From: a virus
Virus record (IMG/VR): IMGVR_UViG_3300031772_000280
Span: 1-23,953 of that record
Length of the DNA stretch: 23,953 nucleotides
Reading direction: 5' to 3' (one strand)
The notes below the pieces were generated by a model. It was not told where the DNA came from. It ran no database searches and worked only from the letters and a program-made list of their open reading frames with translations. How positions within the stretch are numbered: the stretch's first letter is position 1; each line of letters starts with the position of its first letter. This document shows positions 2,359 through 23,344 of the stretch, piece by piece. Position numbers and translations under genes: made by a program.

Positions 2359-3843
2359 ATGGGATTTGAATTTAAATATTCCGCACCTGCTACAGTATCT
2401 AAATTTATACAATCTATTCATAAGAACGCTTTTATACTCGGTCCAATTGGTTCAGGTAAATCTGTTGGTTGTTGCATAAAAATATTTAGAATAGCACTAA
2501 GCCAGGCTCCAGGCAAGGACGGAGTAAGACGTACAAGGTTTACCATTGTTAGAAACACAAGGGACCAGTTAAATGATACTACCCTAAAGACTTGGCAGAA
2601 GTGGTTCCCTGATGGACCTCTAGGAAAGTATAAAGTATCGGATCGTACCTATGTTATGAATTTTATACCCCCTGATGGAATACCAGTTCATAGCGAAGTT
2701 ATGTTCAGAGCTCTTGACGATGCTGCTGACGTTGCCAAAGTTCTTTCTATGGAAGTAACTGCAGCATGGTTAAACGAATGCCGTGAGATACCCAGAGAGA
2801 TCGTAGAAGCACTAGGTAGTAGATGCGGACGATACCCGGACGACGAACAACGACCAGATGATATGCCCAAAGCGCAATGGCCTACGTACTATGGTTTATT
2901 TGGGGATACAAACGCCCCAGAAGAAGATTCGTACTGGGCTCATGTATTTGACCATACCTCGATTGATGAAGATAACGAGAACTCAGTACTGGTATGTGAA
3001 ACATTTGTTCAACCTGCAGGAGATTCTCCACACCCAGAAAATATAGAGCATTTACCAGTGGGATATTATGAACAGAATGGTAGGTCTGACGAATGGTTTA
3101 GAACTATGGTTCAGGTCCAATATGCGAGATCTATTAAAGGGAAACCAGTATATGAAAAAACATTTAGACCAGAACGGCACATTTCTAAAGTGCAGTTAAA
3201 ATACAATCCAAACCTCCCGCTTATCATAGGGCAAGATTGCGCAAGGTCTCCAGCTGCAGTATTTATGCAGATGAACCCGAATGGAAGGATTAATATTTTG
3301 TCAGAGGCCACAGGGTTTGATATGGGGGCTAAAACTTTTATTAGTATGAAAATACGACCAGTACTACGAAATAGAGGGTTTGAGGGTTCCTTAGTTTTTA
3401 TTGGAGACCCAAGTTGGGTGCAACAAAATAATACAGATGATAATTCATGGAAAAAAGAATTAACCGCGCAGTTTAAGAAAGATGAAAATAACCATGTTAA
3501 ATCAGCAGAAACTAACGACCCTATCCGTAGGATCACGGCTCTTGACGATGCGCTTAGAACCTATCCTGAGGGGGACCCTTTAGTTATGATTGACCCCTCA
3601 TGTACGTGGTTACTCCAAGGGTTGAGAAGCAGATATAGGTACGGAAGAATTAAGGGTTCGGATAATAAGTATCATGACCGCCCAGAGAAAAATAACTGGT
3701 CGCATGTGGTAGAAGCGGCCCAATATGCAGTGTTGTTTCTCACTGGTAAATATTATAGGGTTGATGATTATATAAAAATAAACTACAATATGTTCACTAA
3801 CAGAACAACATATAGACCTGCGGATTCACGAGTAGGCTATTAA
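2359..3843 (+). CDS. terL: Terminase large subunit
   Basis: This is the DNA-packaging motor ATPase and nuclease, 494 residues, usual for the family. Walker A is GPIGSGKS at residues 28-35. The Walker B region is AAWLNE at 135-140, where E140 is the likely catalytic carboxylate and Asn stands in the usual Asp position. Following text 'CREIPREIVEALGSRCGRYP' is typical of this terminase group. The C-terminal nuclease is marked by D293 (IIGQD) and D350 (VFIGDPS). The segment around residues 410-430 (IDPSC...LLQGLRSRYRYGR) is also typical. A start at ATG 2359 follows AAAGG at 2347-2351. No small subunit is recognisable in the window. Confidence 0.95.
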   Translation: MGFEFKYSAPATVSKFIQSIHKNAFILGPIGSGKSVGCCIKIFRIALSQAPGKDGVRRTRFTIVRNTRDQLNDTTLKTWQKWFPDGPLGKYKVSDRTYVMNFIPPDGIPVHSEVMFRALDDAADVAKVLSMEVTAAWLNECREIPREIVEALGSRCGRYPDDEQRPDDMPKAQWPTYYGLFGDTNAPEEDSYWAHVFDHTSIDEDNENSVLVCETFVQPAGDSPHPENIEHLPVGYYEQNGRSDEWFRTMVQVQYARSIKGKPVYEKTFRPERHISKVQLKYNPNLPLIIGQDCARSPAAVFMQMNPNGRINILSEATGFDMGAKTFISMKIRPVLRNRGFEGSLVFIGDPSWVQQNNTDDNSWKKELTAQFKKDENNHVKSAETNDPIRRITALDDALRTYPEGDPLVMIDPSCTWLLQGLRSRYRYGRIKGSDNKYHDRPEKNNWSHVVEAAQYAVLFLTGKYYRVDDYIKINYNMFTNRTTYRPADSRVGY

Positions 3844-8667: not shown

Positions 8668-9114
8668 ATGTCAACCAAAGTTAGTGTAATGTCCAAAGCA
8701 CATAATCCCGATCAAATTGATCTTTTTGAAGCGATTCTAAATGATATGACGACACTGCGTACAGCACTCGCAGCCTCAGATATGGTTGCGTTTGTGGCTA
8801 ATGTTACTGCGATGCAAGCGGATATCGCAGCATTGAGAGGATGTTTGCTTAGGGTCCAAGCTGATGAATCAGCCTTGCGCACAACAGTAGCAGCTGTCCA
8901 GACCGATGTAGCGGCTATATACACTGGGTACGCAGCTCTGGTAGCAAAACTTAATTTAGATGTTGGTGTAACCGACGCAGACTATGCTAATCCAGCGGCT
9001 AAGACTTCTGCTGCTCCTGCAGCATTAACCTCGTCTGCTCCAGCAGCTGTTACGTCTGCAGTTCCAGCAGCTATTTCTGTTACTGATCCAGACGCGCTTA
9101 CTCTTATTATGTAG
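8668..9114 (+). CDS. Ala-rich coiled-coil structural protein with Pro/Ala repeat tail
   Basis: The 148-residue protein has residues ~18-95 helical with coiled-coil spacing (LRTALAASDM, VTAMQADIAALRGCLL, LRTTVAAVQTDVAAI). It then has 'LVAKLNLDVGVTDADYAN' (about 91-108), a segment shared by many phage capsid-associated proteins. From residue 113 a Pro/Ala-rich tail of three 8-residue repeats leads to SVTDPDALTLIM. A virion accessory role with the preceding gene is inferred, since both sit between the capsid gene and the terminator. GGGGGA at 8653-8658 serves as ribosome binding site. No function is proposed beyond this. Confidence 0.7.
   Translation: MSTKVSVMSKAHNPDQIDLFEAILNDMTTLRTALAASDMVAFVANVTAMQADIAALRGCLLRVQADESALRTTVAAVQTDVAAIYTGYAALVAKLNLDVGVTDADYANPAAKTSAAPAALTSSAPAAVTSAVPAAISVTDPDALTLIM
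9004..9075 (+). repeat. Three degenerate 24-bp repeats encoding an 8-residue Pro/Ala unit
   Basis: Units at 9004-9027, 9028-9051 and 9052-9075 encode TSAAPAAL, TSSAPAAV and TSAVPAAI. A fourth, decayed unit (SVTDPDAL) may follow. The DNA has diverged more than the protein, which suggests selection on the amino-acid pattern. Confidence 0.75.
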
Positions 9115-9119
9115 GAAGT

Positions 9120-9159
9120 AAACAGGGTGGGAACTCACGAGCCCACCCTGTTTTTATTT
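9120..9159 (+). terminator. Strong intrinsic terminator closing the capsid transcription unit
   Basis: A 12-bp stem (9120-9131 with 9142-9153, core ACAGGGTGGG / CCCACCCTGT), 10-base loop and T-rich tail (TTTTTATTT from 9151) lie 6 bases after the preceding stop. This is a textbook intrinsic terminator. Downstream neck and tail genes would receive only read-through transcripts, which would set capsid expression above tail expression. Confidence 0.93.
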
Positions 9160-9160
9160 G

Positions 9161-9166
9161 AAGGAG
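9161..9166 (+). promoter_or_regulatory. Shine-Dalgarno fixing the start at ATG 9173
   Basis: AAGGAG sits 6 bases before ATG 9173. It excludes the in-frame TTG at 9158, which lies inside the terminator T-tail and upstream of this site. Confidence 0.85.
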
Positions 9167-9172
9167 TCTATC

Positions 9173-9451
9173 ATGGGGATTTATTGTAAGGAAATGATTA
9201 AAATAGGTAAGGCATCAGATGGATATGTTATTGAGGTATGTGTCCCTAAGAAATGTGACGAAAAGAAAAAAGGTAGGATAGAACCTATGAGATCAATGGA
9301 ATTTGAGGAAATGTTTGTTGCTAAGAATGAGGATGAAGTAGCAGCAAAGATCAAAGAAATTCTTCCTAAACTTGACGGTGAATATAGTACAGAGAAAGAA
9401 TTTGCAGCAGCGTTTGGCAAAGCAGTAATGGAGGAAAAGGAAGATGATTAA
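9173..9451 (+). CDS. Small hypothetical phage protein
   Basis: The 92-residue protein starts MGIYCKEMIK. It is charged, with two apparent strands (KIGKASDGYVIEVCVP at about 10-25, then FEEMFVAKNEDEVAAKIKEIL at about 44-64). This 'nGyiv.v ... vf..~dEv' pattern occurs in many small phage proteins of unknown function located between capsid and neck genes. The C-terminus is Glu/Lys-rich (KAVMEEKEDD). Three Cys occur in the first 28 residues (C5, C23, C28) but do not form a recognisable zinc motif. The 3' end overlaps the next gene by 8 bases, indicating translational coupling. Confidence 0.75.
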   Translation: MGIYCKEMIKIGKASDGYVIEVCVPKKCDEKKKGRIEPMRSMEFEEMFVAKNEDEVAAKIKEILPKLDGEYSTEKEFAAAFGKAVMEEKEDD

Positions 9452-9707
9452 CAACTTCCCTCCACCTTCAGTAGTAAATGCAGTTCGTGATCTTGGGCAA
9501 CGTAGAGTAGATAAGATCATGAATGAAATGAATATTAAAGATATTCCAGAAGAGGAACTATGTGTTTTATCAGAAGAACATGGAGATTATTTTGTACTCT
9601 CAATTAATGGGGTTGTAAAACATCTACCAACTGGTGTAAAATTACATTTATCAGAAGCAGAGAAGCACGTTCTTCGGAACGCAAATATCATTGAAGAAAA
9701 GGAGTAA
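9444..9707 (+). CDS. Small hypothetical protein in the neck region
   Basis: The 87-residue product begins MINNFPPPSVVNAV. The N-terminal half is helical and charged (VRDLGQRRVDKIMNEMNIKDIPEEEL). The second half has two strands around 'YFVLSINGVVKHLPTGVKLHLSEAEKHVL'. It is not recognised. It overlaps the gene before it by 8 bases, with an AAGGAAG site inside that gene, and is followed 5 bases later by another small gene. The three form one small-gene cluster between capsid and connector. Confidence 0.72.
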   Translation: MINNFPPPSVVNAVRDLGQRRVDKIMNEMNIKDIPEEELCVLSEEHGDYFVLSINGVVKHLPTGVKLHLSEAEKHVLRNANIIEEKE

Positions 9708-17193: not shown

Positions 17194-20100
17194 ATGTCCG
17201 AATATTTTACTTTAGACGAAAAAGGCAACAGAGTACCCTATAACGAACCTCTTCCTGAGAAAACAACTACTGTAGAGGAAACACTTAAAGCCCCCGCACG
17301 TATTCTAGGCAAAACTGTTGATATTTTAGGCGAACAGGCGCAAGGTTTAATCCGTCATTTTCGAAGTTCGCAAAATACTTCGATTGCCCCGTTGGAGCAA
17401 GTAAGCCCACAGTCCACAATCAACATGAGGAACTGGGGTAAAAACCTTGCTGCAGCCAGCGAAATAGCCCCTGCATATAGGGCTGAACACCCTATTATTT
17501 CTACTGCTGGCGATATAGCAGAAACATTACCTGGGACACTCGCTGCTTTCGCAAACCCAGCTGGTGTTATAACAGGTCCTGCTGCTTTTTTCGGTGGTCA
17601 ATATGAGAAGTCATATCGATCTGGAATAGAGCATGGTCTGCCAGAAGTATCAGCTCGTAGTGCTGCTCAAGCTCCTGCTACTATTGCAGGTATTGGGGCT
17701 GCATTAATGGGCCCAGTTGCTAAAGTTGCAGGAGGTTTAGTCCCAGCTGCTAGAACAGCAGAAGAACTAATACGTCCTGCTATTTCCACCTCGCTACAAC
17801 GTGGCCTTGCTGGTATTGCAGCAGACACATTGGTTATGCAGGGCCAAACAGCAGGTATCGCAGAAGCTGAGAAAGCAACAGGTGCTCGTCCTGAGGCTAA
17901 TGCTATGGAAGAAGTATGGAAAAATCCTACTGCATGGGTATCAGCTATAATGATGGGTGCAGGATTCAGAGGGCTTAGTGGCATGCAGAAAGCCTTGGAA
18001 CTTCGTAGCCTACGTTCTGCTATGTCTAATCCTGAATATCCTTCCCAGAAGCGTATGCTTGCTGCTGAGAAGATTCAGAACGCATTGAGGGAAACAGATC
18101 CAGTAGCTGCAGAGCAGTTTGGTGCAAAAGCACTAGAGGCTATTAATAATAAACAGGCAATGCCCTTTGGCTTGGAAAAACCAAAAGAAAAAATTATCAA
18201 CGCACTTGAAGAAAAAGTAGCTAACCCAGAATCCAACTTTGAAGACAATCTGGCAAAAGCCATGACTGAACCTATTGAAAAACCTATAACCCCAGGCATT
18301 CATCCAGAACTACATAATTCTTTAGCCTTCAGTGTGAGCAAAGGAATTGACCCAAACGTTGATATGGCAAGTACCAAAAAGACTGAGGACTACTTGAAAC
18401 AACAAGGGATTGAGTACAAAAGAGTCCAAGGTGTTTACAAGGGTACTCCAGAAGAATCTTTTGTAGTTTCTAATACTCCGGCAAATGCAAAAATTGTAAA
18501 TCGTATCGCTACTAAATTTAACCAAGATTCGATAATACATACCGATGCCGAGGGCAATGTCAAACTTATATATAATAATGGCGAAGAAAAATTTATTGGA
18601 GCAATGCGAGAAGTATCCCCAGAAGAAACTAAAACTCTTCAGTCATATACATTTGATCCCAAATCGGGAAAATATTTTAGTACATCGGAGGCGCAAAATG
18701 CCACTCAAGAAGGGGGCATGGAGCAAGGAACAAAATTTCAGGGAGTTAACACAGGCAATAAAGGAGTAGGATTATCTCCTGCATTCATGGATGCGTACCT
18801 CAAACAAGTAACGAAAGATCGTAAATTCGCAACGGAAGAAAATGCATCAGGTGAATCAGCAGCATCGCTTGAGGCTATAAGAAGATCTGGAAATGAACCT
18901 CCTCGCCTACGTTTTGATACACGTTCTGGCAAAGGTAACATTCTTCGAGGTGTTGATGCTGTTGATTTTCAGCCTAGCCCATATGAAATAGTTATCCAAC
19001 GCACAGGTAGGGACGGTGAAATGTCTATAGTATCCCAAGGTGCTAAAGTAACCGATTCTATGCTCACTAGGGCATTATCAAAATATCGTGCTTCTGTTGA
19101 AGAAGGTATTGGCAAACAGGAATCTACCCCAGAAGCAGGTATCGCTCTATCTAACCCCAGTAAAAAAGTAATTGGTTTGGATATTGACGGTGTGTTTAAT
19201 ATCAACGATGGTAAGGGTACAGTAGATCCTTCTAGAGTTATTGAATTTAATAAAATTCTAAACCAGAATGGAAACCCCGACATCGTACTTGGTTCTACTT
19301 GGAGAGAATCAGCATTACTTAAAAATGATATAGCTGAAGCTCAAGCAGTTGTTGATAGTCTTGGAATTAAAGCAAGGGTTGTGGGGGTTACTCCAGATCT
19401 TGGTGGTGACGCTAACATGGGTTCTCGTGGTGCTGAGTACAAAGCATGGGAAGACGCATACGGGCGTAAGTATGGATCTGAACTTGTTGCAGTACTAGAT
19501 GATCGTGCGGATCTTACAGAACTCGGCCCTCGCCACATTAAGACAGAGAATGGACTTAGCGAAGACACATTGAATCAATTAGCTTCAGCACTCAAACCGG
19601 CACCAACTCTTACAAAAGGGATCGTACAGAAAACATTTCCTAAATCGGAAGTAAGTGAAACTCCTGAAGGTTTTATGGTAAAGACTCCTGGTGGTACTGA
19701 GATGCTAGTAAAAGAGCAATCAGTTATTATCATGACTCCTCGTGAACGTGTAGCCGCAGAAAAGGCTTATGGGCGTGAACTCACAGCTAGCGAAGAACCA
19801 ATAGCAGCAATTGAACTTGGGCTTGATACTATCTTAAGCCTTACTCCTCGTGGGGTTAAAGCCATTGACCATGAAAAATGGCATTGGGCAGAATATGCTG
19901 CATTAAGTAAAAAAGAACTGGATATTGTTTCCAAAAAGTATATAACCGAAGAAGCTCGTGCTGATGCATACCAAGAATATATTAACAAACTAGGCAAAAA
20001 TCTTAATGCTAAACCTGCTAATAAGATTGAGGCTATATGGCAGAAGATGGTTGATTTTTACCAAAAAGTTAAATCTATGTTTGTACTGAGCGAACAAGAC

Positions 20101-22836
20101 GTATTTGGTAGGTTAGCAAAAGGTGAGATGGAAACACGAGCTCCAAAATACGGGGAAACTACCAAGGAATATCTTCAAGCTTTAGCCTCATTAAGTAAAA
20201 CGCCAAAGAACGCAGTAGAAGCTTGGAATATTCCAAGCACTCCTGAAGTTCCTATTAAATACTCTATCCAAGATATGGCTAAAAGTGTTAAAGAAAGTAA
20301 ATTCGTGGAAGACGATGTTAAACCCAAAGCAATTAATGCGATTAATAACATAAGAGAAGTAGGCGATCAAGCCCTACGTGCATTTGCTCCTGCTGCTCGT
20401 TCGGAGCAAGCCTTCCAGACACAAGCAGAATTTCGTAATGTTCTTGGGGAGATGTGGAATAAACAACTTCAGGCTTCAACTAAATTAGATAAGATTATGA
20501 AGGATATTAGAGGAGAAGTTTCCACAGTATCCTCAGTGCTTGACAATATCCGTTCTCAGGGTAAGACTTTAGCTGATACTTATTTCTCCAAAATGCCTGA
20601 AGGCGAAGCACATGAATTTATGGCGCGTATGGATAAAGGGCTAAACCAAGTTGATGCCCCACGCCAAGCCATTGCTGATTTTATGAAAACTTCATTTGAT
20701 TCCAGAGTACAAGCTATTCAAGAATTAGGTACTGGTCTACTCACAAACATCCAAACAGGGGAGGGGGAAAATCCATTTTTCCCTCGGTACTGGGAAAAAG
20801 GAGAAGAAGCACAAAAGACTATTTATTCTAATATATCCAAACGCCCTCTTGAAGGCGGCAAAGCATTTGCCAAACAGAGAGTGTTTGACGATATTTATGC
20901 AGGTATAAACGCTGGATACAAACTGGTATCTAATAATCCTGTTGACCTTTTCTTTATGAAACTTGGAGAACTTGATCGATATATTGCTACCCATAAAATG
21001 CTTCAGGCATTAGAGAACGAGGGCATTGCTCGTCTAGTCCCTGCCGGTGAGGGAATGGAGCAAGGAGAAACCAATATACTTGGAACCTATGGTACGGTAA
21101 AACGTGCTGAGGTAGACCCTAATGGTGTACAGCTTCTCGGTTCAGAAAAATCTTACAGGTACGCTGTACGTGATGATGTTGCACAGTTAGTTAATAACTA
21201 CCTTTCTCAGAATCTATATAATAATAAGTACACCGGGAAAGCGTTCTCAGGATATATGAACATAGCTAATAATCTTAATCAAATGCAACTTGGGGTAGGA
21301 TCTTTATTCCACGGCGGGTTTACTACTCTTGAAGCAATTATTAGCCACGCAGCCTTAGGAATTAAAGCTATTTCTAATGGTGAAATTACCAGAGGTGTAA
21401 AATATATAGCCGCCGCTCCTGCGGAAGCATGGAGAAACCCGCAAATAGGAAATAAAGTATTATCCGAAATGGCAACCCCAGGGAGCGAAGGTATTTCTAT
21501 GGGGATGAATATTCCATTGATAGCTGAAAATGCTGTTCTCGCTGGGGCTAGAAAAGGAATGGACACAAGATTCCAAACACATACAACAGAAAAAATGTTT
21601 GAGGCATGGTCTAATGGGAACAAAATAGGTGCAGTTATTAGATCACCACTCGCTATGGTGGAACAGATGGCGCGTCCTCTTATGGAATATCTTGTGCCTA
21701 GACAAAAATTTGGAGTTTTTGCCGATATGAGCTCCTATTGGATGAACGAACATCCAAATGCTTCTTTTAGCGAAAGACGTGATGCGATGCAAGAAATATG
21801 GAACCGTGTTGATTCACGTCTAGGCCAAGTTGTTTATGATCGACTATTTGTAAATAACATAGCCAAAAATTTTGTGCAAGGGGCCATTCGTGCTCCAGGT
21901 TGGACTGGGGGTACTATACTAGAACTTAGTGGAGGTATTAAAGATATTGGAACTATGATTAAAAATGTAGCCCACGGGGAAAAGCCTAATATGTCTGACC
22001 GCACAGCATACGGAGTATCTTTGGTTTTGACCACAATGATTGCCAATGGCTTACTAACCGCCCTGTTTACCGGAGAAGCCCCTGAGGGAAAGGACTTTGT
22101 AGCCTTTAGGACAGGTAATACCGACGAACATGGATTTGAAGAACGTTTTATGCTCCCTACTTACATGAAGGACGTTCTCGCCTATAGCGAAGCCCCAAGT
22201 ACTACCCTAGCAAATAAACTACATCCCGCTATTGGGCTAGTAAAGAACTTAGCAACCAATAAAGACTATTATGGTACTGAAATCATCCACGAAGGCGATA
22301 ATATAATCTCCCAAGCTGCTCAAGTTGCGGGGTTTACTATCAAACAATATCAACCTTTTTGGGTACGAGGCGTACAAAAAGAATCAGAACGTGGAGGTGG
22401 GGCTATGGCATTAGGAGCTCCATTTATTGGTATTATGCCAGCTCCTTCCGACCTTAATAGAACACCAGCAGAACGTATGATTCGTGGGTTTGTGTCCGAA
22501 CGTATGCCTAAAACATCTAAGACTAATGTAGAATTTGAACGGAGTAGAATGCTCACTAAACTTACTTCTGAATTTAGACAGCAAAATCCAGATGCAGAAA
22601 AAGACTTGCACGAAGCAATCGCTAATGGTATTATCAGTACAGTTGCTTCCAAAAGTATAAAAAATGCAGCTAAATTATCTCCACTTGAATCTGGATTTAA
22701 AAGATTGTCTCTTGAAGAAGCGCGGAAAGTAATGGAGCGAGCAACACCTGAAGAAAGAACTATACTATCACCCATTTTAAAAAACAAGGAAGCACATGCC
22801 AAAAAACTCTATCCCAATGCGGAAGAGAATCTCTAA
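17194..22836 (+). CDS. Giant multi-domain ejection protein: DUF3293-like, HAD-like and zincin domains plus conserved phage C-terminus
   Basis: The 1880-residue protein is by far the largest in the window, the size of internal proteins that podoviruses eject with their DNA. Order: hydrophobic stretches near 104-130, 160-185 and 245-262; a DUF3293-like region (about 400-500; PEESFVV 419-425, KFNQDSII 441-448); a HAD-like domain (about 658-815) with DIDG at 663-666, GSTWR 700-704 and D769-D770; a zincin motif HEKWH at 893-897 with E919/E920 and 'ARADAYQEY' following; then a long helical part. The last ~350 residues hold marks of phage ejection proteins (perhaps LPD38): 'APGWTGG', 'LPTYMKDVLAY' (~1654), 'NKDYYGTEI' (~1689), 'GIMPAPSDLN' (~1747). 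No transglycosylase motif was seen. Roles are inferred. Confidence 0.82.
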   Translation: MSEYFTLDEKGNRVPYNEPLPEKTTTVEETLKAPARILGKTVDILGEQAQGLIRHFRSSQNTSIAPLEQVSPQSTINMRNWGKNLAAASEIAPAYRAEHPIISTAGDIAETLPGTLAAFANPAGVITGPAAFFGGQYEKSYRSGIEHGLPEVSARSAAQAPATIAGIGAALMGPVAKVAGGLVPAARTAEELIRPAISTSLQRGLAGIAADTLVMQGQTAGIAEAEKATGARPEANAMEEVWKNPTAWVSAIMMGAGFRGLSGMQKALELRSLRSAMSNPEYPSQKRMLAAEKIQNALRETDPVAAEQFGAKALEAINNKQAMPFGLEKPKEKIINALEEKVANPESNFEDNLAKAMTEPIEKPITPGIHPELHNSLAFSVSKGIDPNVDMASTKKTEDYLKQQGIEYKRVQGVYKGTPEESFVVSNTPANAKIVNRIATKFNQDSIIHTDAEGNVKLIYNNGEEKFIGAMREVSPEETKTLQSYTFDPKSGKYFSTSEAQNATQEGGMEQGTKFQGVNTGNKGVGLSPAFMDAYLKQVTKDRKFATEENASGESAASLEAIRRSGNEPPRLRFDTRSGKGNILRGVDAVDFQPSPYEIVIQRTGRDGEMSIVSQGAKVTDSMLTRALSKYRASVEEGIGKQESTPEAGIALSNPSKKVIGLDIDGVFNINDGKGTVDPSRVIEFNKILNQNGNPDIVLGSTWRESALLKNDIAEAQAVVDSLGIKARVVGVTPDLGGDANMGSRGAEYKAWEDAYGRKYGSELVAVLDDRADLTELGPRHIKTENGLSEDTLNQLASALKPAPTLTKGIVQKTFPKSEVSETPEGFMVKTPGGTEMLVKEQSVIIMTPRERVAAEKAYGRELTASEEPIAAIELGLDTILSLTPRGVKAIDHEKWHWAEYAALSKKELDIVSKKYITEEARADAYQEYINKLGKNLNAKPANKIEAIWQKMVDFYQKVKSMFVLSEQDVFGRLAKGEMETRAPKYGETTKEYLQALASLSKTPKNAVEAWNIPSTPEVPIKYSIQDMAKSVKESKFVEDDVKPKAINAINNIREVGDQALRAFAPAARSEQAFQTQAEFRNVLGEMWNKQLQASTKLDKIMKDIRGEVSTVSSVLDNIRSQGKTLADTYFSKMPEGEAHEFMARMDKGLNQVDAPRQAIADFMKTSFDSRVQAIQELGTGLLTNIQTGEGENPFFPRYWEKGEEAQKTIYSNISKRPLEGGKAFAKQRVFDDIYAGINAGYKLVSNNPVDLFFMKLGELDRYIATHKMLQALENEGIARLVPAGEGMEQGETNILGTYGTVKRAEVDPNGVQLLGSEKSYRYAVRDDVAQLVNNYLSQNLYNNKYTGKAFSGYMNIANNLNQMQLGVGSLFHGGFTTLEAIISHAALGIKAISNGEITRGVKYIAAAPAEAWRNPQIGNKVLSEMATPGSEGISMGMNIPLIAENAVLAGARKGMDTRFQTHTTEKMFEAWSNGNKIGAVIRSPLAMVEQMARPLMEYLVPRQKFGVFADMSSYWMNEHPNASFSERRDAMQEIWNRVDSRLGQVVYDRLFVNNIAKNFVQGAIRAPGWTGGTILELSGGIKDIGTMIKNVAHGEKPNMSDRTAYGVSLVLTTMIANGLLTALFTGEAPEGKDFVAFRTGNTDEHGFEERFMLPTYMKDVLAYSEAPSTTLANKLHPAIGLVKNLATNKDYYGTEIIHEGDNIISQAAQVAGFTIKQYQPFWVRGVQKESERGGGAMALGAPFIGIMPAPSDLNRTPAERMIRGFVSERMPKTSKTNVEFERSRMLTKLTSEFRQQNPDAEKDLHEAIANGIISTVASKSIKNAAKLSPLESGFKRLSLEEARKVMERATPEERTILSPILKNKEAHAKKLYPNAEENL

Positions 22837-22840
22837 CACA

Positions 22841-22850
22841 AGGAAGGTGA
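22841..22850 (+). promoter_or_regulatory. Shine-Dalgarno deciding the start of the small metallopeptidase
   Basis: AGGAAGGTGA lies directly before ATG 22853 and includes AAGGTGA, a long match to the 16S rRNA anti-SD. An in-frame ATG at 22796 lies inside the giant gene with no comparable site, so 22853 is preferred. Confidence 0.8.
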
Positions 22851-22852
22851 TT

Positions 22853-23344
22853 ATGAACGCACAAGTGATGATGAAAAAATGGCAGCGACGTTTGGGTTTG
22901 GGAAATTGGGAGATAGATTTTCAAGTATTATCCCCGGAAGAATATCAACAAACTGAACAAATGTTAGGAGTAGAGCCAGGAGGCTCACAAGCATTAGTGT
23001 CCCCCTGTGCAGATCGTGCTGAAGCACAAATGAATCTCAGAGAAGGAAGTGATCGTCCTGAACTATCTATTATCCACGAATTAATTCATCTTAATCAGAA
23101 CGGCATGAATGAGATTATGACGCAAATGGTAAATAGTATTGATAGCAAAGTACTCGCTAATTCACTTGTGGAATTATACATCGCTGCGCATGAATGTAGT
23201 GTCCATAGTACTGCACGAGCTTTTTACAATCTTCAAAATAGCTACGAACTACAAATATCTAAACTCAAAAAACAACTTATATCAGAGAAAGAAGTACTTG
23301 TGGAGAAAGAAGTAACCCCGATGGGTTTTAGACTGGATGAATAG
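22853..23344 (+). CDS. Small HExxH zinc metallopeptidase (phage zincin)
   Basis: The 163-residue product has 'GLGNWEIDFQVLS' (15-27), an 'AEAQMNLRE' strand (56-64), and 'LSIIHELIHLNQNG' (71-84). The HELIH motif is at 75-79; H75 and H79 bind zinc and E76 is the catalytic base. E107 (LVELYIAA) is the likely third ligand, with H113 and E114 as alternatives. This strand-HExxH layout is that of small phage zincins, often of unknown substrate. The C-terminus (130-155) is a charged coiled-coil-like helix. It could process virion or host proteins. It starts 16 bases after the giant gene and so shares its transcript. Confidence 0.8.
   Translation: MNAQVMMKKWQRRLGLGNWEIDFQVLSPEEYQQTEQMLGVEPGGSQALVSPCADRAEAQMNLREGSDRPELSIIHELIHLNQNGMNEIMTQMVNSIDSKVLANSLVELYIAAHECSVHSTARAFYNLQNSYELQISKLKKQLISEKEVLVEKEVTPMGFRLDE

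Follow-up and report, generated by a model that had tools for sequence, protein, structure and literature searches.

Why would a giant phage protein encoded among virion structural genes carry a HAD-like domain of the RNA-repair-associated type, and what would this domain do there? The question is raised by a viral DNA stretch of 23,953 nucleotides (IMG/VR record IMGVR_UViG_3300031772_000280; hereafter the window), in which the last large gene of the structural module (17194–22836, + strand) encodes a protein of 1880 aa. The first-pass annotation called this product a virion ejection protein, located a HAD-like domain in it, and suggested RNA end healing as its role. Based on the ORF list, the translation, giant genes at equivalent positions in other phages, and a conserved C-terminal family, we consider the product a polyvalent-type virion protein. 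The whole explanation, in which a backbone carries a SAM lyase and a HAD as cargo together with a releasing zincin, seems to us moderately probable.

The giant protein contains a HAD_SAK_2 domain at residues ~656–802 (19159–19599, +), as defined by PF18143, a structure model, and Foldseek. In the window's own record, PF18143 matched residues 659–791 with 42.1 bits (E 1.7e-12); the score was 36.6 bits with the whole protein and 41.5 bits with the isolated region, compared with a curated cut-off of 27.5 bits. The HAD region also matched PHROG 1818 (E 4.5e-10). A chance motif match is ruled out as an explanation by these profile E-values. The landmarks DIDG (663–666), GSTWR (700–704), and VLDD (767–770) are all present where the first-pass annotation had placed them, and HIKTENGLS lies further downstream. 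The coding pattern for DIDGVFN had one match in the window and none in 100 shuffles. In an alignment of nine HADs, two of them from the window protein and its counterpart in a 61-kb relative (L002) and seven encoded by standalone genes of phages, 12 residues are invariant in all sequences (D663, D665, S701, W703, R704, R745, G746, E748, D769, D770, D773, and G787). Catalytic motifs I (DIDGVFN, 19180–19200, + strand; D663 as the nucleophile, and D665), II (GSTWR, 19291–19305, +; S701, with R704), and IV (LDD, 19495–19503, +; D769 and D770) are intact. The RGxE segment (R745, G746, and E748; 19426–19437, +) is a candidate for the motif III region, in which R745 may act as the base. AlphaFold modeled the domain (pLDDT 79.6, pTM 0.73) with a Rossmann-like HAD fold, and a Foldseek search with the model retrieved viral HAD proteins (15 matches at E 1e-3 or better, best E 1e-7). 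The HAD_SAK assignment and the HAD fold, both anticipated from the motifs, were thus confirmed by the HMM search and by structure prediction, respectively. Sequence comparison of the HAD and the SAM lyase with the PDB gave no meaningful match.

An exact-peptide search for close relatives led to a single locus, L002, and the HAD-bearing architecture is represented by these two genomes, the window being a 24-kb fragment. Between the two, the dN of the HAD is 0.17 with saturated synonymous sites, compared with 0.165 for the backbone, 0.40 for the SAM lyase, and 0.52 for the N-terminus. The HAD is under strong purifying selection, its value being level with that of the backbone. The same values rule out a pseudogene or an unselected insertion. 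Between the SAM-lyase and HAD regions, the L002 protein (residues ~515–700) is ~150 residues longer than the window protein, which suggests turnover of cargo or linker.

The giant protein contains a second enzyme domain; the first-pass annotation overlooked it, as it did the zincin-like region and the conserved C-terminal backbone. This SAM lyase domain at residues 386–497, or ~377–497 at its widest (18322–18684, +), matches PF23780 (S-AdoMet_lyase) with 53–59.6 bits against a cut-off of 28 (E 9.0e-18). In an alignment with phage SAMases, including that of T3, G413, Y415, E420, and Q444 correspond to SAM-binding or catalytic residues of Svi3-3, in which the SAM-binding residues are defined and E69 is critical (PMC7877911). 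The catalytic Glu420 is present in the window protein. The L002 SAM lyase (9099–9470) has Lys at this position; therefore, it may be inactive, and cargo may decay. The window domain shares the site-defining G, Y, E, and Q with T3 SAMase and Svi3-3 (PMC7877911). However, the known phage SAM lyases are small proteins, that of T3 being expressed early, whereas the window's forms one domain within a presumed virion protein. Since the known enzymes are trimers, this single domain would probably need intermolecular assembly. Phage SAM lyases neutralise restriction-modification and BREX (PMC12255297).

A zincin-like region (residues ~866–960; 19789–20073, +) is located between the cargo and the backbone. 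It contains HEKWH at residues 893–897 (19870–19884, +) and EARAD (E919/E920) downstream. The HEKWH region shows weak, significant homology to the HEAFH regions of two other backbone giants (E 3e-5 and 8e-5). It had no Pfam match, and its structure model was of low confidence and too poor for use. As judged from its sequence, the region fits a zincin-like metallopeptidase; polyvalent proteins carry zincin-like peptidases more often than any other domain (PMC5512222), although not obligatorily. The gene directly following the giant gene (22796–23344, +) encodes a 182-aa protein with a HELIH motif, and its homolog adjoins the giant gene in L002. This protein is possibly a separate metallopeptidase able to process the giant protein.

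The C-terminal ~740 residues (~1127–1873; 20572–22812, +) constitute the conserved backbone, a presumed packaging and ejection scaffold supported by hmmsearch (E down to 6e-147) and without a Pfam match. Its family was traced from the motif VDNR-G-VYDN-F, which we took to be typical of the C-termini of large phage proteins and then tested. A degenerate DNA pattern for the motif identified 116 stretches in the viral collection, and a profile built from the window protein and that of L002 recognized the proteins encoded there at E-values as low as 1e-147. While a first scan of the genome collection with full-length alignment returned nothing, alignment-based scans gave 150 relatives in viruses, of which 80 were kept, and 16 contigs of bacterial genomes, the latter from Bacteroidetes, Verrucomicrobia, Nitrospirae, Acidobacteria, Firmicutes (Megasphaera paucivorans), and others. 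A tblastn search of 50,697 cultured-phage records gave no match to the backbone. Within the searched set of metagenomic phages and diverse bacterial contigs, the backbone was found in 183 recovered reading frames (E below 1e-3), which represent fewer independent proteins because some contigs were fetched twice. The backbone is C-terminal in the recovered frames, and the part preceding it ranges from almost nothing to ~3300 residues. The Pfam cargo domains in these N-termini include InPase, LPD1, LPD5, ART-PolyVal, ddrB-ParB, RadC, and GGDEF, and further MuF_C, phage lysozyme, Kinase-PolyVal, 2H (2_5_RNA_ligase2), and Acb1; the Acb1-like anti-CBASS domain occurs in one member. Because the variable N-termini of the backbone relatives carry known polyvalent cargo, the most fitting reading of the window protein is that of an injected virion protein of the polyvalent kind. 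The closest backbone match is a prophage-like giant protein of >3700 aa in Megasphaera paucivorans DSM 16981 (L174, 2–11152), a cultured bacterium that may serve as a laboratory model for the backbone.

Local models of the HAD and the SAM lyase detected neither domain on any of the 183 frames other than those of the window and L002. The HAD is therefore dispensable for the backbone. This distribution bears on a phage-side function, in which the HAD would be a protein phosphatase or else a folding or spacer module, catalytically quiet, that is needed for packaging or ejecting the giant protein. Two observations are consistent with such a function: the HAD is as conserved as the backbone, and the fold library lists a HAD fold for several large proteins of phages that bear the annotation prohead protease. 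We regard it as improbable, however, since every catalytic residue is kept, which would be needless for a spacer, and the HAD is lacking on the other backbone frames. A Pfam scan of the records of 50 relatives for HAD_SAK_2 was also empty, in a search that detected no positive control.

The genomic context of the giant gene is that of a late structural module. Terminase, portal-like, major capsid, adaptor, and head-closure genes are located upstream on the same strand. Phages with a related capsid protein (41–47% identity) or a related neighbor gene encode a giant protein in this module as well, mostly at the equivalent place; three of these syntenic giants have Pfam polyvalent domains, and all six examined have at least one HExxH. 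The window protein showed no significant homology to the syntenic giants of Pun_Y3, Rollin, StenR_269, LKA5, 8P, and ctwe8250; therefore, the position is kept while the sequence differs. For the window's other genes, synteny around the backbone relatives was uninformative, since flanks of 10 kb seldom extend as far as the capsid genes; the capsid family of the window turned up in 2 of 25 relatives. The terminase of the L002 phage (L039, 5509–7971, − strand) has an apparent intein in the Walker A region, and the window terminase (2359–3843) is without an intein. As for the label of virion ejection protein, the placement of a giant protein in a late structural module holds, and proteins of this kind have been proposed to be injected (PMC5512222), whereas ejection itself is deduced from gene order and the backbone family.

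The polyvalent proteins that Iyer et al. (2017, PMC5512222) outlined in phages and conjugative elements are giant multidomain proteins encoded next to structural genes, with unrelated enzyme domains and an HExxH domain. The window protein likewise combines two disparate enzyme domains, the SAM lyase and the HAD, in one large polypeptide encoded with virion structural genes, and its backbone homologs carry LPD, ART-PolyVal, ddrB-ParB, InPase, RadC, and GGDEF domains. Unlike these homologs, it has no Pfam polyvalent domain itself, and HAD_SAK and SAM lyase are absent from the main text of that study. It also resembles the N4-type virion RNA polymerase and P1 DarB/DdrB, giant ejected or packaged proteins with enzyme cargo and a zincin domain as described there (PMC5512222). 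The likeness considered here is one of architecture, and the cargo differs. The StenR_269 protein at the equivalent gene position is annotated as a virion-associated RNA polymerase.

We propose a delivery mechanism that follows the published model in which multidomain proteins are injected and processed by a zincin (PMC5512222). The backbone would allow the giant protein to enter the particle and to leave it along with the DNA, with the N-terminal half as cargo. The zincin-like domain probably cuts the polypeptide, and the cargo would thereby be freed. The SAM lyase may destroy S-adenosylmethionine or the SAM-AMP messenger and would thus blunt defences that depend on methylation, type I restriction and BREX among them. 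During the first minutes of infection, the HAD, as an uncapped Mg-dependent phosphatase, may strip nucleotides or the ends of nucleic acids of their terminal phosphates; RNA ends made by host nucleases would be the most likely substrate. Injected counter-defence proteins are known from T4, in which Ip2 and Ip3 block restriction enzymes (PMC12373910). Alternatively, the giant protein could be made late and its cargo could stay outside the cell, for example in the particle or at the envelope. We consider this very unlikely because the SAM lyase, the HAD, and the cargo of the relatives (ART, ddrB-ParB, GGDEF, Acb1, and InPase) need cytoplasmic substrates.

The substrate of the HAD can be approached through its fold, its motifs, and its standalone homologs. 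In the PDB, Foldseek ranked T4 polynucleotide kinase/phosphatase (Pnkp) first for the HAD model (E 5e-3, probability 0.99), while no PDB match passed E 1e-3, and a profile comparison of the HAD with T4 Pnkp by hhalign showed no relation (probability 0.1%). The link to T4 Pnkp is therefore at the fold level only. Unlike T4 Pnkp, the window protein has neither a kinase domain nor a ligase partner that could be found: searches of the 61-kb relative for the RNA ligase families PF09414 (6 of 14 positive controls detected) and PF09511 (no positive control detected in that search) were negative. The HAD shares motifs and fold with the standalone phage HADs of HAD_SAK_2 and PHROG 1818, with ~25–35% identity to those of T4-like, Vibrio, and other phages. 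These are separate accessory genes of ~140–190 aa, whereas the window HAD is embedded in a structural-module giant. In the handful of neighborhoods examined, none of the standalone homologs is next to an RNA ligase. In KVP40 (L046, 2492–4134) and QD01 (L044, 3004–4613), the standalone HAD_SAK_2 gene lies directly upstream of natV, which encodes an NMN adenylyltransferase/ADP-ribose pyrophosphatase, and Vibrio phage 1.081.O has the same HAD–natV gene order. The standalone HAD gene of RAS14 adjoins a COG3236 gene, and the remaining neighborhoods are uninformative. The natV adjacency hints at NAD-related metabolism for the HAD_SAK_2 family.

Because the neighborhoods examined do not confirm RNA-end trimming, a nucleotide substrate stays a serious rival. 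The injected HAD could be a small-molecule phosphatase or nucleotidase whose substrates are nucleotides derived from NAD/ADP-ribose or cyclic-nucleotide defence signaling, possibly together with a SAM lyase acting on SAM-AMP. The natV and COG3236 neighbors are in line with this possibility, as are cargo domains on the same backbone aimed at nucleotide signaling (Acb1, GGDEF, and InPase), and SAM-AMP lyases with the same fold as the SAM lyase are established anti-CRISPR candidates (PMC12255297). On balance we find it doubtful, however, given that these neighborhoods are few and that published predictions favor RNA ends: SAK-type ('Swiss-army-knife') phage HADs have been assigned, as standalone genes, to RNA-end phosphate trimming (PMC7824862, PMC9503650). 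The motif spacing also argues against it. D665 and S701 are separated by 36 residues, and no cap insertion is apparent from motif I to motif II; HADs without an obvious cap often, indeed usually, act on large, macromolecular substrates. For the RNA end healing suggested by the first-pass annotation, membership in HAD_SAK_2 stands, while neither the Pnkp profile nor the neighbors of the examined standalone homologs bear it out. An RNA repair role for this HAD is a guess from family naming and the published predictions, and trimming of RNA ends is kept here as the preferred reading on that footing.

Polyvalent proteins as a kind and both enzyme families were already known. The combination of a SAM lyase with a HAD, HAD_SAK as embedded virion cargo, and the backbone as a broad chassis appear to be undescribed in the main text of PMC5512222 and in the other text covered. 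We tentatively suggest, as a possibility short of probable, that the backbone is a widespread delivery chassis that swaps counter-defence cargo, and that this branch delivers an enzyme that destroys SAM together with a phosphatase for nucleic-acid ends or nucleotides, both pre-made, before phage gene expression. If this is true, SAM lyases and SAK-type HADs, known as early-expressed or standalone genes, would also be delivered pre-made in the particle. The unsettled function of HAD_SAK_2 would become testable in a defined setting. The backbone would further offer a route to new counter-defence enzymes, in which anything encoded upstream of it is a candidate.
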